Positions 11,182 to 43,972 of a DNA stretch of 64,000 nt are shown here, piece by piece (position 1 is the stretch's first letter; each line of letters opens with the position of its first letter). This stretch comes from Sneathiella sp. P13V-1 (lineage in GTDB: Bacteria; Pseudomonadota; Alphaproteobacteria; Sneathiellales; Sneathiellaceae). The notes under the pieces are model-generated. The model searched no databases. It was not told the origin of the DNA and saw only the letters and a list, made by a program, of their open reading frames with translations. Made by a program: the position numbers and the translations under genes. The stretch covers positions 62,001-126,000 of the forward strand of contig NZ_WYEU01000002.1 in NCBI RefSeq assembly GCF_015143595.1, read 5' to 3'.

Positions 11182-13086
11182 ATGGTCGCTGGTGAACTAA
11201 TACTGTTTCTGTGTTTGTTTACAGCCTTTGTTGTGTTGTTACGACAAAGGCTGAAATTCACGCGTGTTCATATCGGACCAAAGCTGGTTATTGTCGGGCT
11301 TGGCCTGGTTTCGCTAACCTCTTTTATTGATTTCCTGGTCGTTGGCCCCAATCATGTACTTCCAACCGGCATTCATGATGAAGAATTTATCGAGTTCTGG
11401 CGCATTTATGGCTATGTCCCCGGGATGATTTTCATCCTTTTGGGGATGGCTGGCTTTATCCCTGCAATGGGGGCATTGAACAAGGCTTACGATGTGCGTG
11501 AGGCTTCGGAACGGAAGCTGCTGCAGCAGGCCGTTGATCTGAACGAAGCCAAAATGCGTGCTGAAAAAGCAGAACTTATTTTGCGTGAGGCACTTGAATC
11601 AATTGCGGATGCCTTTGTTATCTTTGATGCAGAAGACAAACTGATTGCCTATAACAGTCAGTATAAAAAGCTCTTCCCAGATGTTGCTGATATATTGGAG
11701 CCAGGTGTTACCTTCGAGGAGCTTATTCGCTATCAGGCAATGACTTCGGATTTGCTGGAAAGTGACGAGGAGAAGGAAAACTGGGTGCAGCAACGCCTTG
11801 AGGAGCATCGAAACCCAGACGAAGCTAAAGAGCAGATTTTTAAAGACGGCCAGATTTATAGGCTGTCCGAGTTTAAAACCGCATCTGGCGGAACCGTTGC
11901 GGTTCGAACCAACATAACGGACCTTCGTAATCGCGAACGCGCCCTTATTCATCTCAATGAACGTCTGGAAGAAGCGCAATCAGTTGCCCATCTTGGTAGC
12001 TGGTCAAAAGAGCTTTCATCAAACAAGTTGGAATGGTCTGACGAAGTCAGCCGTATTATGGGATACGAACTTGGTACCATTCCGCATGAGTATAGTTACT
12101 ATACGGATCGCATTCACCCGGATGATATCGACGAGATGTTTGATATCGTACGCAGCGCCCTTAAAGAACAGGATGGATATCAGGTTGAATACCGAATGGT
12201 TCACCCTGATGGCAAAGTTGTTCATGTCAGGGAACTGGGTAAGGTGGTCAAGAACTCAGCCGGAGAGCCTGTCGCGCTACATGGTACCATGCAGGACATC
12301 ACTGCTGAGCAGGAGGTGGAGCAGGAGCTTCTTGAAGCCAAAAAGAAAGCGGAAGAGGGAACGAAGGCAAAATCAATGTTCCTGGCCAATATGAGTCATG
12401 AACTTCGAACTCCGTTAAATGCGATCATTGGTTTTGCAGAAGTCATTTCAAAAGAGATATTCGGCTCGATCAATAACGAGAAATATAAAGAATATTCTGA
12501 AAATATTCTCTCTTCCGGTCAGCACCTGTTGTCATTGATTAATGATATTCTGGATTATTCCAGACTTGAAGCAGGCAAGTTTGAATTGGATGAGGTTGAG
12601 GCCGAAATGAGGGAAATTCTGTCCTGGACAGAACTTCTGCTGCGGCCTCGTGCCCAGGAAAAACATATTGCCTTAAATGTGGATCTGGATACCGACCTTA
12701 TCTTTAGCGGTGATGAAAGAAAGATTAAACAGGTTCTGATCAACCTTGTGAATAACGCGGTTAAATTTACACCCCCAAATGGAGTGGTCGACGTCTTTGT
12801 CGAAGATAGCGATTTTGACCATGTGAGAATTGTTGTTCAGGACAATGGTTACGGAATCAGTGACGAAGATTTGAAACAAATCATGCGTCCCTTTGTGCGG
12901 ACAGTTAATTCGATGACCCGTTCAATTGAAGGAACGGGGCTTGGATTGCCGCTTTCCAAATCCATTGTCGAATTGCATGGCGGCAAACTGGAAATGCAGA
13001 GCAAACAAGGAATTGGAACACGTGTGGACGTGTTAATGCCGCGTCGCCGGTTTGAGAAAATGCAAACTCTCAAAAAAAAGGCTTGA
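11182..13086 (+). CDS. PAS-domain membrane sensor histidine kinase (orphan)
   Basis: Sensor kinase of about 634 residues. It has an N-terminal membrane region of about three helices (to about residue 100), a coiled segment, PAS domain 1 (ESIADAFVIFDAEDKLIAYN), and PAS domain 2 of the PAS_3 type (ending VRELGKVVKNSAGEPVALHG). A HisKA domain follows with phosphoacceptor H406 in NMSHELRTPLN. The HATPase domain has N box VNNAVKF, G1 DNGYGISDEDL and G2 GTGLGLPLSKS. There is no receiver domain and no response regulator next door, so its partner is elsewhere. The start is uncertain: I take ATG 11182 (GGGAAA just upstream), but the frame is open to TTG 11116. The stimulus is unknown. Confidence 0.85.
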   Translation: MVAGELILFLCLFTAFVVLLRQRLKFTRVHIGPKLVIVGLGLVSLTSFIDFLVVGPNHVLPTGIHDEEFIEFWRIYGYVPGMIFILLGMAGFIPAMGALNKAYDVREASERKLLQQAVDLNEAKMRAEKAELILREALESIADAFVIFDAEDKLIAYNSQYKKLFPDVADILEPGVTFEELIRYQAMTSDLLESDEEKENWVQQRLEEHRNPDEAKEQIFKDGQIYRLSEFKTASGGTVAVRTNITDLRNRERALIHLNERLEEAQSVAHLGSWSKELSSNKLEWSDEVSRIMGYELGTIPHEYSYYTDRIHPDDIDEMFDIVRSALKEQDGYQVEYRMVHPDGKVVHVRELGKVVKNSAGEPVALHGTMQDITAEQEVEQELLEAKKKAEEGTKAKSMFLANMSHELRTPLNAIIGFAEVISKEIFGSINNEKYKEYSENILSSGQHLLSLINDILDYSRLEAGKFELDEVEAEMREILSWTELLLRPRAQEKHIALNVDLDTDLIFSGDERKIKQVLINLVNNAVKFTPPNGVVDVFVEDSDFDHVRIVVQDNGYGISDEDLKQIMRPFVRTVNSMTRSIEGTGLGLPLSKSIVELHGGKLEMQSKQGIGTRVDVLMPRRRFEKMQTLKKKA

Positions 13087-13345
13087 TTTCATTCCGAAAT
13101 AAATTCATATGGGCTTCGAAGACGTAATGGCGCACGTGCCACGACGCTTGTCTCCATAATGGATTGTACGGGCAACGACGCAAATCGTCCTTTCTTGGTT
13201 TTCTGGTGTTTCACCAGTAGGATTGATTGAGGGGTTTGCCGTAGATGAACTGAAATCCGTAATTGTATTCCCTCCAATTGAAATTGCCGCGAACCGCTAA
13301 TGGTTTGTATTATTTTCTTTTGGAGAAATCTGTCTTGCTTCTTGA
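13087..13345. other. Gap without a recognised gene, upstream of the polyamine leader
   Basis: About 260 bases between the kinase and the structured leader. A minus-strand open frame (stop at 13089) runs across it into the decarboxylase gene, but it has no recognisable domain and overlaps a conserved gene, so I do not call it. The stretch AT-rich around 13300-13325 may hold the promoter of the polyamine operon. I see no clear -35/-10 pair. Confidence 0.4.
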
Positions 13346-13394
13346 ACGTTGAGGAGCGGAACGTAATGGCACCCGAAATTGAGCGATGAGGTGC
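13346..13394 (+). promoter_or_regulatory. Structured leader upstream of the ornithine decarboxylase gene
   Basis: Two inverted repeats in succession: ACGTT (13346-13350) with AACGT (13360-13364), loop of nine bases GAGGAGCGG; then GCACC (13369-13373, extendable by wobble pairs) with GGTGC (13390-13394). The first loop presents a strong Shine-Dalgarno sequence for a seven-codon reading frame that is almost exactly enclosed by the second repeat. Alphaproteobacterial ornithine decarboxylase genes are known to carry a conserved RNA leader, the speF motif (Rfam). Whether this is an instance needs a covariance-model search. Confidence 0.45.
13366..13389 (+). CDS. Putative leader peptide MAPEIER upstream of the decarboxylase
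   Basis: Seven-codon frame ATG to TGA preceded at nine bases by GAGGAG (13351-13356), a better ribosome site than the one before the decarboxylase itself. The peptide is in a different frame from the decarboxylase, which starts 41 bases later. The peptide resembles the first residues of many alphaproteobacterial ornithine decarboxylases, so it could also be a fossil start cut by a stop. A regulatory uORF sensing arginine, ornithine or polyamines is possible; enterobacterial speF uses an ornithine-sensing leader peptide, unrelated in sequence. No direct evidence of translation. Confidence 0.35.
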   Translation: MAPEIER

Positions 13395-13429
13395 TGTCTG
13401 ACAACATTCTAATAATTGGATTAAAGCCC

Positions 13430-14617
13430 ATGCAAATTGCTCTACAAAAAAAAGCATTAACCCTGGGGGAGTATGAAACTTCGTCATTGGGATTGAGAGC
13501 TTACAATGACGAAGCGACAGCGCTTTCACTAGAGAATTGTGCAGATGCAGTACATTTTCTGTATCCGGAAATTCTGACTGGCAATCTCGCAAAATTTACA
13601 ACTTCCTTCGCTGGGACAACCCTGTACGCGATTAAAGCCAACCCACATCCATCACTGCTAACCTTTATGTGGAAGCATGGGATTAGAAGTTTTGAAGCTG
13701 CCTCCATCCGGGAGATACGTTTCATTTTGTCACTCCTGCCCGATGCAGAAATCTATTACATGCACCCTGTGAAAAGCAGGCAGTCTATTCGCGAAGCCTA
13801 CCAACTGGGTGTAAGAGCGTTCGCCTTCGACTGTGCTGAAGAGCTCTACAAAATTGAAACTGGAACAGATCATGCTGAGGATCTAAGCCTTTTCCTGAGA
13901 TTGCATATGGATCAAGCTGATGCCCGGTATCCACTCAATGACAAATTTGGGCTGTCGCTAAATGAAGCGCCACTTATCCTTCAACGGATGCAGTCTTCTG
14001 CAAATAAATTGGGTGTTACTTTCCATGTTGGATCTCAATGCATGAACCCTGATGCCTACCGTCATGCGCTTTCACAGGTCAGAATGGTGGTTGATCAGGC
14101 TGGTGTTGACATTCATGCTATCGATGTTGGTGGTGGGTTCCCTGTTTCTTATCCGGGTATGGATAACATCGACCTGGCGCCCTATTTTGATACAATTAAA
14201 CAGGCAATTGCCGAGTTTGATTTTGGTGATGTTGATCTGCTGTGTGAGCCGGGAAGAGCGCTTTCAGGAAATGCAGGCGCGGTCGCGGTCCGTGTCGAAC
14301 TTAAAAAGTCGTCGAACCTGTATCTGAATGACGGAACTTACGGTGCCTTATTTGATGCAGGAATTTCGAACTGGAAATATCCTTTGTCTGTTGTGACTTC
14401 GGATGGACGCACGCTGGACCCATCAGAAAGTGACTATAAGTTCTATGGTCCAACTTGTGATAGCCTGGATATGATGGCGGGCCCTTATAAATTGCCTGCG
14501 GATATTGAGGAAGGTGATTGGATTATCTTCCATCACCTTGGCGCATATGGTTATGCCATGCAGACAAAATTTAACGGATTTTATTCTGACACCGTTGTCG
14601 AGATTTCGGCTTTGTGA
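13430..14617 (+). CDS. Ornithine/lysine decarboxylase family (fold type III PLP enzyme)
   Basis: Cytosolic PLP decarboxylase of 395 residues, most likely making putrescine from ornithine. K69 in YAIKAN is the PLP lysine. HVGSQ, DVGGGFP and CEPGR form the phosphate-binding part of the barrel. The C-terminal barrel has LNDGTYGALFD and C343 in PTCDSLD, the catalytic cysteine region contributed by the partner subunit. The start is uncertain: ATG 13430 has only a weak GGA upstream, and in-frame GTG/TTG codons back to 13379 exist. The structured leader supports control at translation initiation. It begins a three-gene polyamine unit, 23 bases before the next gene. Ornithine versus lysine preference is not decided by sequence here. 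Confidence 0.85.
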   Translation: MQIALQKKALTLGEYETSSLGLRAYNDEATALSLENCADAVHFLYPEILTGNLAKFTTSFAGTTLYAIKANPHPSLLTFMWKHGIRSFEAASIREIRFILSLLPDAEIYYMHPVKSRQSIREAYQLGVRAFAFDCAEELYKIETGTDHAEDLSLFLRLHMDQADARYPLNDKFGLSLNEAPLILQRMQSSANKLGVTFHVGSQCMNPDAYRHALSQVRMVVDQAGVDIHAIDVGGGFPVSYPGMDNIDLAPYFDTIKQAIAEFDFGDVDLLCEPGRALSGNAGAVAVRVELKKSSNLYLNDGTYGALFDAGISNWKYPLSVVTSDGRTLDPSESDYKFYGPTCDSLDMMAGPYKLPADIEEGDWIIFHHLGAYGYAMQTKFNGFYSDTVVEISAL

Positions 14618-14640
14618 TCAGTGACGTGTAGGTTTTTAAA

Positions 14641-15678
14641 ATGAACGATCAGACTGTAAATATTGAAAAAACGGATTTGCTGACCAAAAAGGTTGAGCAT
14701 ATCGATATCAAAAGCTTCGATGCGCGCCCAATTGTTGAGGCGATGAGCAAGATGTCTTTTTCTTCCCGCGATTTGGCCCGCGCAACTGAGATTTTTAACA
14801 AATCAGTTGCGGACCCTGACTGCGCGGTGATCTTGACACTTGCAGGCTCAACATCAGCAGGTGGATGTATGCATGTATATCGGGATATGGTCGAGTGCGG
14901 CATGGTCGATGCGATTGTATCAACCGGTGCCTCCATCGTTGATATGGATTTCTTTGAGGCATTGGGTTTTTCTCATTATCAAGGTGATCCTTTCATGGAT
15001 GATCGGAAATTGCGGGATCTGTATATTGATCGCATTTACGATACTTACATTGATGAAGAAGAGCTTCAGTCCTGTGATGAAACCACTAAAATCATCGCGG
15101 ATAGTCTGGAAAAACGCCCGTATTCTTCGCGGGAGTTTATTTATGAAATGGGTCGTTGGCTCAAAGACAATGCGGTCAAGAAAGGGAGCTTGATCGAAAC
15201 CTGCTATGATCACAATGTTCCGATTTTTGTACCTGCATTCTCCGACTGCTCCGCAGGGTTTGGTCTGGTGAAACATCAGGTGGAAAATCCGGATCAGCAT
15301 ATGAGCATCGACAGTGTAGCTGATTTCCGTGAACTTACAGAAATCAAGATGGCGGCAGGTACAACAGGTTTGCTGATGATTGGTGGCGGGGTGCCCAAAA
15401 ACTTTGTACAGGATACCGTTGTTTGTGCAGAAATCCTCGGTAAAGAGGTGGAAATGCACAAATATGCTGTTCAGATTACTGTTGCAGATGTACGTGATGG
15501 TGCCTGCTCTTCCTCAACGCTGAAAGAAGCGTCAAGTTGGGGGAAGGTTGACACAGTATATGAGCAGATGGTTTACGCGGAAGCAACAACTGTTGTTCCT
15601 CTGTTGGCATCTGACGCTTACCATCAGGGAGCTTGGAAAGACCGTCCACGCCGAAACTTCTCAAACCTGTTTAAGTGA
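14641..15678 (+). CDS. Deoxyhypusine synthase-like protein (probable polyamine aminobutyl transferase)
   Basis: NAD-dependent enzyme family that moves a 4-aminobutyl group from a polyamine to an amine. Members in eukaryotes and archaea modify eIF5A, which bacteria lack, so bacterial copies act on small polyamines (homospermidine synthase or related). The active-site lysine is present at K302 in EASSWGKV, matching the SWGK of human enzyme. Also conserved are LTLAGSTSAGG near the N-terminus, VSTGASIVDMD, and MIGGGVPKNFVQD. Length 345 is normal. It sits between the decarboxylase and an arginase-family gene, six bases from the latter. Likely product homospermidine from putrescine or a guanidinylated analogue; the exact reaction is inferred. 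Confidence 0.82.
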   Translation: MNDQTVNIEKTDLLTKKVEHIDIKSFDARPIVEAMSKMSFSSRDLARATEIFNKSVADPDCAVILTLAGSTSAGGCMHVYRDMVECGMVDAIVSTGASIVDMDFFEALGFSHYQGDPFMDDRKLRDLYIDRIYDTYIDEEELQSCDETTKIIADSLEKRPYSSREFIYEMGRWLKDNAVKKGSLIETCYDHNVPIFVPAFSDCSAGFGLVKHQVENPDQHMSIDSVADFRELTEIKMAAGTTGLLMIGGGVPKNFVQDTVVCAEILGKEVEMHKYAVQITVADVRDGACSSSTLKEASSWGKVDTVYEQMVYAEATTVVPLLASDAYHQGAWKDRPRRNFSNLFK

Positions 15679-15684
15679 TAACGG

Positions 15685-16593
15685 ATGCAGGATCTGAAAA
15701 GTAGAGTTTTGCCTTCTGAAGAGGGGTTCTTAGGCCTCTCTCCAGAAGATGCAATGCCTTTTGAAGAGGCCAAAGTTGTTATTGTACCTTTTGGTCTGGA
15801 AGCCTCTGTTAGTTATGGAGGAGGGACGTCCAAAGGCCCTGCGGCGCTTATTGAAGCGAGCCATCAGGTTGAGCTTTTTGATGAAGAGTTTTGGACTGAA
15901 CCCTTTCGTGAGTATGGTGTTACGACGCTGACTGATGAAGCGGTAGATGGCTCCGATATTCCTGCGGCACTGGATCAGTTGGCAGCTATCAATTCTACCC
16001 TCCTTGCAGCGGGCAAATTTCCGCTGGTGGTGGGTGGTGAGCATTCCATTACCCCAGGTGCTATCAGACCTTTTCTGGAAAAATACCCTGATCTGGCAAT
16101 TTTGCATTTTGATGCTCACGCCGATTTGCGTGATGGGTATGAAGGGGAGCATTATTCTCATGCGGCGGCCATCCGCAGAGTGTTAGATCATCCGACAGTT
16201 CCGATAGTTTCTGTCGGGATTAGAAATATCTCTGCTGAGGAAATTCCGTTTCTGGAAGAGAATAGGGACCGTATTCAAATTCACTGGGCTTATCAGAAAG
16301 ACACTTGGGATGTTGAGGAAATTGTGAGACCTCTTAAAGGGCGTCCAATTTATCTGACTTTTGATTTGGATGGATTTGATAGTTCCCTGATGCCCGCCAC
16401 AGGAACACCAGAGCCTGGGGGGCTGTTTTGGGATGATGCGCTGAAAATTATCCGCAGGGCTGCTGTTGTAGGGAATATCGTAGGCGCAGATGTCAATGAG
16501 TTGGCACCAATGGAAAGTTTTCATGCACCAGACTTCCTGGCTGCGAAACTCGTCTACAAGATATTAAACCATACATTTTGCGATCCCGTTTAG
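15685..16593 (+). CDS. Arginase-family ureohydrolase (agmatinase-like)
   Basis: Binuclear manganese hydrolase of 302 residues removing urea from a guanidino compound. All metal ligands are visible: H120 in GGEHS, D143/H145/D147 in DAHAD, and D227/D229 in FDLDGFD. The GEHYSHAAAIRR segment and the PATGTPEPGG loop are closer to agmatinase than arginase. With a decarboxylase and deoxyhypusine synthase-like gene in the same unit, it probably supplies putrescine or removes guanidino groups from a longer polyamine. No arginine decarboxylase is present in the window to make agmatine. After the stop, a weak CCCT/AGGG repeat near 16624-16634 is not a convincing terminator. Confidence 0.85.
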   Translation: MQDLKSRVLPSEEGFLGLSPEDAMPFEEAKVVIVPFGLEASVSYGGGTSKGPAALIEASHQVELFDEEFWTEPFREYGVTTLTDEAVDGSDIPAALDQLAAINSTLLAAGKFPLVVGGEHSITPGAIRPFLEKYPDLAILHFDAHADLRDGYEGEHYSHAAAIRRVLDHPTVPIVSVGIRNISAEEIPFLEENRDRIQIHWAYQKDTWDVEEIVRPLKGRPIYLTFDLDGFDSSLMPATGTPEPGGLFWDDALKIIRRAAVVGNIVGADVNELAPMESFHAPDFLAAKLVYKILNHTFCDPV

Positions 16594-43463: not shown

Positions 43464-43844
<381 letters not shown>

Positions 43845-43972
43845 GCGTATTCCAGGCATGCCTTTAATGGCCTTGTCATATTAGATGGATATTTGAAAAG
43901 ACTTTCCGTTAAACCAAGTTGTTTAATAGGTTAAAGTTAGTCGCAGAGCTTTGATTTGGTGAAGGGAAAAGA

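Follow-up and report, generated by a model that had tools for sequence, protein, structure and literature searches.

A conserved speF/ar45-like leader RNA upstream of the polyamine gene cluster of Sneathiella

Upstream of the ornithine decarboxylase gene speF of Escherichia and Salmonella lies the leader peptide speFL (ORF34), an arrest-peptide system of gammaproteobacteria. The speF RNA element (RF00518), which is found upstream of genes of the ornithine decarboxylase family in alphaproteobacteria, was described by Corbino et al. in 2005 in an extended form, in which a stem close to the transcription start precedes a long, bulged stem-loop of ~80 nt (PMC1273637). In that article, in-line probing of the Agrobacterium tumefaciens speF RNA is reported to have revealed no binding of ornithine, putrescine, cadaverine, spermidine, lysine or diaminopimelate, and the word homospermidine does not occur in the text (PMC1273637); a survey from 2013 still lists speF with unknown ligand (PMC3766115). 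A second element, ar45 (RF02347), is reported to be expressed in Bartonella separately from the speF leader located immediately downstream, and the ar45-type RNA of Sinorhizobium meliloti is said there to co-precipitate with Hfq (PMC7717549). In another study, smrC45 appears as a candidate independently transcribed small RNA (PMC2573895).

The stretch of DNA analyzed here (hereinafter, the window) comprises 64,000 nucleotides of the genome of Sneathiella sp. P13V-1 and encompasses a predicted polyamine gene cluster that starts with a putative ornithine decarboxylase gene (Table 1), the best solved relatives of the encoded protein being lysine/ornithine decarboxylases. The gene order in 13430-16593 suggests an agmatine route to homospermidine, and the "ornithine" decarboxylase might use arginine. 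The start codon of this gene at 13430 is correct: in the closest relative (L031, from a Sneathiella metagenome-assembled genome, on a contig shared with G023; 63% protein identity), the protein begins with MQIA at the same place and the in-frame stretch upstream contains a stop codon. Elsewhere in the window, at 43465-43847, a bacterial RNase P RNA of class A was detected (327 bits).

Table 1. Features of the leader region and of the polyamine gene cluster in the window
Feature	Position	Strand	Comment
TTGATT, -35-like hexamer	13083..13088	+	Overlaps the stop codon of the upstream histidine kinase gene; would imply that transcription begins close to the 5' end of the RNA
Conserved leader RNA, speF/ar45-like	13119..13247	+	Comprises P0, P1, P2, Shine-Dalgarno sequence and first ATG
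P0, 5' arm (GACG)	13121..13124	+	Partner 13186-13189; forms when 13119-13190 is folded alone
P1 (CGCACGUGCC ... GCAACGACG)	13131..13180	+	Near-invariant core
P0, 3' arm (CGUC, then CUUUCUUGG)	13186..13189	+	Overlaps the 5' side of P2
P2, long bulged hairpin	13180..13239	+	GCAAAU...CCUU pairs with GAGGGGUUUGC; masks the ribosome site
Shine-Dalgarno-like GAGGGG in the 3' arm of P2	13229..13234	+	Invariant in the five Sneathiella copies
First start codon after the RNA (ATG AAC TGA)	13245..13253	+	Two-codon frame
Terminator-like hairpin with U-rich tail (GCGAACC..GGUUUGU, AUUAUUUU)	13289..13316	+	Possible attenuation point
MAPEIER* frame in 8-bp stem	13366..13397	+	Stem, not codons, kept in one relative; function doubtful
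PLP-dependent decarboxylase of the ornithine/arginine/diaminopimelate family, putative ornithine decarboxylase	13430..14617	+	Pfam PF02784/PF00278
1,9-bis(guanidino)-5-aza-nonane synthase (deoxyhypusine-synthase-like)	14641..15678	+	NF002699, 591 bits (cut-off 500)
Agmatinase, third gene	15685..16593	+	TIGR01230, 211 bits (cut-off 174)

The initial annotation of this DNA proposed a leader of the speF kind before the decarboxylase gene, at 13346-13394, around a seven-codon frame, MAPEIER. This proposal was right in kind but wrong in place: comparison of the window with L031 showed that a different region, 13119-13247, about 100 bases upstream of the MAPEIER frame, is much better conserved, and the Rfam speF model is blind to it. 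Among 60 relatives searched, the conserved block was found at the equivalent place before the same gene in four Sneathiella genomes (G023, G011, G004 and G012). The five copies, the window included, align over 130-139 nt, share 18 consecutive invariant bases (GCGCACGUGCCACGACGC) and retain pairing at the hairpin apex where the sequence varies, with compensatory changes in the apical stem of P2. Six pairs are changed on both sides, a number reached by 3 of 500 shuffles, and none of 500 shuffles reached the covariation score. The comparison identifies a conserved and structured leader at 13119-13247, ahead of the polyamine gene cluster. Within the genus, the element is present in 5 of the 24 genomes and the decarboxylase in 20. 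Inspection by eye of four Sneathiella loci that lack the element (L004-L007; genomes G005, G009, G018 and G007) showed a -35-like stretch, CTTGATTT, kept before the same gene, and leaders that differ from the element and are alike in two pairs.

A covariance model built from the five Sneathiella copies (R1), which by construction scores these copies at 137-147 bits, yielded no further strong copy in the 24 genomes of the genus, the four remaining matches being weak (E 0.01-0.3). At E 0.1 or better, R1 matched 28 of 385 alphaproteobacterial genomes, including the window genome and G012, and at 15 of the 18 new loci (L109-L126) a decarboxylase of the same family is encoded downstream. The alignment of 15 of these 18 loci (A5), with no Sneathiella sequence among them, was used to build a second model (R2); R1 and R2 are not independent because the training loci of R2 were found with R1, and the last three positions of R2 correspond to the ATG of the training set, which favors matches with ATG there. 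R2 matched the window with 35.7 bits (E 2e-6), the sole match listed for this genome; the four remaining Sneathiella copies were each recovered at E 1e-4 or better. With a threshold of E 0.01, matches were found in 67 of the 385 genomes (15 of these 67 are training genomes) and in 47 of 276 genera. All 11 positive genomes in a sample of 249 genomes of the phylum belong to the class of the window genome, the output not showing the share of the sample that lies outside this class. A search of plasmids gave nothing. The family is not visible from primary sequence alone because a 15-base pattern, searched across the 385 genomes, matched only the window genome and G012, and it was the covariance models that revealed it.

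The structure was further examined in a single alignment of 88 copies (A6), fitted to the model, which consists of 85 of the 86 R2 matches in the class together with the copies of G023, G011 and G004; the match left out (L123, from G202) has a decarboxylase gene downstream. In this alignment, 94.2% of the cells pair, 21 of the 28 pairs are doubly changed, and the covariation score was matched by none of 500 shuffles. P0, with the consensus GACG(C)/(G)CGUC, has copies changed on both sides for all five modeled pairs, although in an alignment that was fitted to the model. In P2, the pyrimidine tract (CCUUU) that follows P0 pairs with the Shine-Dalgarno sequence of the first downstream frame. Predicted folding of the window sequence gave unusual stability for P2 (z -3.08, 2 of 200 shuffles as stable) and ordinary stability for P0/P1 alone (z -0.34) and for the whole 157 nt (z -0.58). 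GCAAAU/GUUUGC lengthens P2 in Sneathiella, and some of these bases are also required for P0; in the predicted folds, P0 forms when the 3' arm of P2 is omitted and P2 wins when this arm is included. Given that GCAAAUCGUC serves both, P0/P1 and the long P2 are predicted to exclude each other in Sneathiella, the window included.

The Rfam models miss the relationship of this RNA to the described families. The search with the Rfam speF model that was recommended in the initial annotation returned nothing at this place: in the window, neither speF nor ar45 reached its gathering score (37 and 40 bits, respectively), and neither produced any match up to E 10 across 12900-13700, while at lax thresholds the window and four relatives gave no speF or ar45 match, just chance-level matches to unrelated families. 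Three speF matches in the window genome are all sub-threshold and away from the gene. Among the 385 genomes, 12 contain an Rfam speF match over the cut-off, and only G052 and G248 are shared with the R2 list, that is, the two models mostly pick out different genomes. When R2 was applied to 14 Rfam speF loci (12 of these over the cut-off), 8 were matched at E <0.001, 10 at <0.03 and 12 at <0.2, L211 and L217 giving no match; the matches run from an ar45-like stem into the 5' start of the speF match. In G052, ar45 and speF are separate Rfam matches, eight bases apart, with ar45 directly upstream.

The window element resembles speF in its location upstream of an ornithine-decarboxylase-family gene of an alphaproteobacterium and in its layout, namely a 5' stem and then a long bulged stem-loop, with a spacer before the start codon; unlike in speF, P2 carries in Sneathiella the GCAAAU/GUUUGC extension that competes with P0, and the conserved 3' blocks of speF (GAAGAGGC...UUGCC..GUGCGG) are absent (by eye, against L208-L220). 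With ar45 it shares a 5' stem that a short terminal helix closes and that contains the core GCACGUGCC...GCAACGACG, located in the window at 13132-13140 and 13172-13180 within P0, whereas the P1 loop and the terminal stem differ and the U tract of the window is interrupted. Because R2 matches most of the speF loci and the layout is the one described by Corbino et al., we conclude from these sequence comparisons that the element in the window is related to the speF/ar45 leader, distantly and in a divergent form, and that it falls outside the Rfam definition of either family. Several of the canonical speF leaders (L208-L220) contain, by eye, an extra small hairpin with CCUCC in the loop (e.g., GCGCCUCCAUCGCGC) that could mask a ribosome site. 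Behind P2, the canonical speF loci do not preserve a reading frame, as an indel distinguishes L212 from L214 in the run TTGCCC(C)ACGTGCGG.

Polyamine genes follow the element in 83 of the 88 copies, and 3 of the other 5 (L164, L170 and L191) end at contig ends. In 75 copies, the alignment of the decarboxylase starts within 447 nt. In seven (L160, L207, L176, L163, L150, L153 and L194), the next gene is homospermidine-synthase-like, and in four of these seven loci a decarboxylase gene is located ~1.62-1.67 kb after the element. The L160 protein contains Pfam domains of the saccharopine dehydrogenase type, L160 and L150 have no NCBIfam match, and the other five were judged by sequence alone; the name homospermidine synthase was assigned to these genes by no model. 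In L189, the RNA precedes speD-speE (TIGR03330 and NF002010, both above cut-off), and this locus also has an 8-codon leader frame with the stop codon in a GGGGC/GCCCC tetraloop. In L140, it precedes a gene for a class I glutamine amidotransferase, the first frame running for 294 amino acids into the respective domain; this is possibly a polyamine-related enzyme. The remaining locus, L162, has no clear target. That one RNA precedes, depending on the genome, the decarboxylase gene, a homospermidine-synthase-like gene or speD-speE makes the cellular polyamine state the probable signal.

The first ribosome site after P2 was analyzed in 87 of the 88 copies, L191 being left out because it runs off the contig end. 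An SD-like 4-mer ends the P2 arm in 84 of the 87, and an ATG is located +4 to +14 nt from the 3' end of this arm in 80, compared to 6/87, 12/87, 6/87, 4/87 and 7/85 in five equally wide control windows; with the 15 training loci excluded, the respective numbers are 69/72 for the SD-like motif and 65/72 for the ATG (4-10 of 70-72 in the controls). The decarboxylase gene itself is the first frame in 17 of the 88 copies; in 61 the first frame is short (8-59 codons), and 10 copies have neither, among them the window and L031 (ATG TTT TGA in the latter), where the model ends P2 early. Direct action of the element on the decarboxylase gene is therefore possible, and the 17 copies suggest that the element needs no leader peptide.

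Codon constraint in the short leader frames was assessed in 24 matched pairs. The mismatches are distributed over the three codon positions as 111/90/148 (p 0.0006), with the L128/L136 pair as the largest single contributor (13/12/31) and the remaining pairs at 98/78/117 (p 0.02). Of the 23 remaining pairs, 8 were, in our grouping, unlike frames aligned under protein guidance, a procedure that favors third-position changes; the 15 like-frame pairs without L128/L136 gave 74/59/75 (p 0.31). The candidate role of a leader peptide as a general mechanism is weakened by this result for the like-frame pairs, and coding constraint appears clear in one lineage only (..GRENPLSSQ). The leader frames of L128, L136, L141 and L130 end in ..G R (E/K) N P L S S.., and the peptides of L128 and L136, ending in GRENPLSSQ(H/R), are apparently under selection in this lineage. 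The speFL system of gammaproteobacteria is similar in having a short frame upstream of an ornithine decarboxylase, but codon constraint of the frames studied here is confined as just described, and the comparison showed no homology to speFL.

In 37 of the 88 sequences, the DNA available 5' of the element is long enough for a promoter comparison, and TTG was counted 32 times between -38 and -34. Only this position is conserved: the full sigma-70 score (-35/-10) of the upstream DNA does not exceed that of shuffles (7.11 vs 7.04), and a consensus promoter scan called none at 13083-13088. The spacer between the element and the decarboxylase gene contains one terminator-like and two promoter-like sites, near the chance number. 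The terminator scan found one site, 13289-13316, with 0.6 expected in shuffles (hairpin z -2.41, 3 of 200); a promoter-like match at 13284-13313, with 0.9 expected by chance in the region, overlaps this hairpin and, if real, could give transcripts that bypass the element.

Taken together, we propose, with a probability of roughly 0.7, that 13119-13247 is a divergent leader of the speF/ar45 type and that it regulates polyamine genes by exposing or masking a ribosome site. Transcription would start near 13119 and P0/P1 would form first; the outcome of the competition between P0 and P2 would then set the first ribosome site open or hidden, such that in one state P0/P1 would be closed and the site free, and in the other the long P2 would form and the site would be hidden. 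In genomes of the G004 and G012 type, such a switch would set translation of the decarboxylase directly. The site in the window leads only into a two-codon frame, with the start of the decarboxylase gene ~180 nt further on, so that control would have to act via transcription or coupling, that is, through transcription attenuation at the 13289-13316 hairpin or through coupling over the spacer, and hiding the site of the two-codon frame need not affect the decarboxylase. Separate ar45 transcripts would fit premature ending after P0/P1; against such ending in the window itself, no terminator was called inside the element and the U tract after P0 is interrupted (CUUUCUUGG).

A variant that is compatible with this proposal, and to which we give somewhat less than an even chance, is that an RNA-binding protein or the ribosome lands on the leader, which would then not be a metabolite-binding riboswitch. 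The core of the element is short and almost invariant, as in protein-binding sites, and the in-line probing of the A. tumefaciens speF RNA gave no ligand (PMC1273637). Conversely, two conserved stems combined with a switchable ribosome site are typical of riboswitches, and only six small molecules are named as tested, with homospermidine not in the text (PMC1273637).

It seems improbable that 13119-13247 is mainly a trans-acting small RNA of the ar45 kind that lies upstream of the decarboxylase gene by chance. Separate expression in Bartonella and co-precipitation with Hfq in S. meliloti, as reported (PMC7717549), and the candidate status of smrC45 (PMC2573895) would be in line with such a function, but a prematurely terminated leader would look like a separate small RNA too, and the 83 of 88 copies followed by polyamine genes, the 84 of 87 with an SD-like 4-mer in the P2 arm and the 17 of 88 with direct fusion to the decarboxylase argue against it.

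About as little can be said for the reading put forward in the initial annotation, that MAPEIER is translated as a leader peptide and acts on the decarboxylase, together with the hairpins, via coupling or attenuation. The sequence elements on which this reading was built do exist: the frame ATG GCA CCC GAA ATT GAG CGA TGA occupies 13366-13389 (stop codon at 13387-13389), GAGGAG, a good Shine-Dalgarno sequence, is located at 13351-13356, 9 nt 5' of the ATG, a second stem surrounds the frame, and the decarboxylase starts in a different frame, 40 nt after the TGA. GAGGAG, which had been placed in the loop of an inverted repeat, is indeed flanked by a 5-bp repeat (13346-13350/13360-13364), but the preferred fold is a longer, 11-bp hairpin (13335-13345/13349-13359) with GAGGAG in its 3' arm, in which the site could be hidden; this hairpin is somewhat above chance (z -1.80, 13 of 200 shuffles as good; z -0.11 for a fold restricted to 13340-13369, where part of the 5' arm is missing). 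The 8-bp stem 13366-13373/13390-13397, with two G-U pairs, encloses the frame as had been noted, but its stability is chance-like (z -0.57, 54 of 200 shuffles), and neither 13300-13460 nor 13330-13440 is more stable than shuffles (z +0.83 and +0.63, respectively). A repeat finder with an exact seed of 6 reported one imperfect palindrome in the MAPEIER region.

Among the relatives read, the region is retained only in L031, as TGGCAC-CGAAA--GAGCGATGAGGTGC, with TTG in place of the start codon and with the GAGGAG stretch unalignable and the motif absent. Codon 3 is changed from CCC to CTC and codon 5 from ATT to AAC, both changes being non-synonymous with no synonymous one, whereas by hand count all 8 pairs of the stem are still possible, one of them changed on both sides and three on one side. 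Constraint on the region as a stem rather than as codons is suggested, and no more than suggested, by the two sequences compared. In this one relative, the conserved frame with synonymous bias expected of a leader-peptide attenuator was not found.

The other leader frames provide some parallels. The stop codon of MAPEIER lies in a stem, and structure at the stop codons of other leader frames exceeds that in shuffled sequences (mean z -0.83, sem 0.18, for the 59 of 61 frames that could be folded, kinship being ignored), but the same signal is seen at +20 (-0.81) and +80 (-0.61) and so is not unique to the stop codon. Four of the 61 frames (L160, L170, L207 and L200, three of these being close relatives) end in ..RIER*, reminiscent of the ..EIER* of MAPEIER; against this, leader frames elsewhere begin right after P2 and not 119 nt on. 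The seven-codon frame is probably incidental and probably does not encode a regulatory peptide. The further suggestion that MAPEIER is the remnant of an older decarboxylase start is very improbable: it lies just upstream and the frame from the TTG at 13379 is open into the gene, but the frames differ, none of the N-termini of relatives compared resembles MAPEIER, and L031 has a stop codon in that upstream frame together with the same MQIA start.

Returning to the leader at 13119-13247 as a divergent member of the speF/ar45 type, a broader reading, which we offer tentatively and consider rather doubtful as a whole, is that ar45 and speF are both parts of a single RNA class that is widespread in alphaproteobacteria and exceeds the present annotation several-fold. 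By masking the ribosome site of the first frame, this RNA would govern a polyamine regulon (decarboxylase, homospermidine synthase and speD-speE), and it would sense an untried polyamine, such as homospermidine, and the "ar45 sRNA" would be its prematurely ended product. In the open literature as far as it was covered, neither the occurrence of this RNA before homospermidine synthase or speD-speE nor a hidden ribosome site in it has been reported. Since 2005, the speF element has stood as a candidate riboswitch that lacks a ligand; the R2 model adds the homospermidine-synthase-like gene and speD-speE to the targets, which points to polyamine sensing, and the natural short versions (G004, G012, L142, L157 and L183), in which the RNA sits directly on the start of the decarboxylase gene, would be the simplest constructs for tests of ligand and mechanism.
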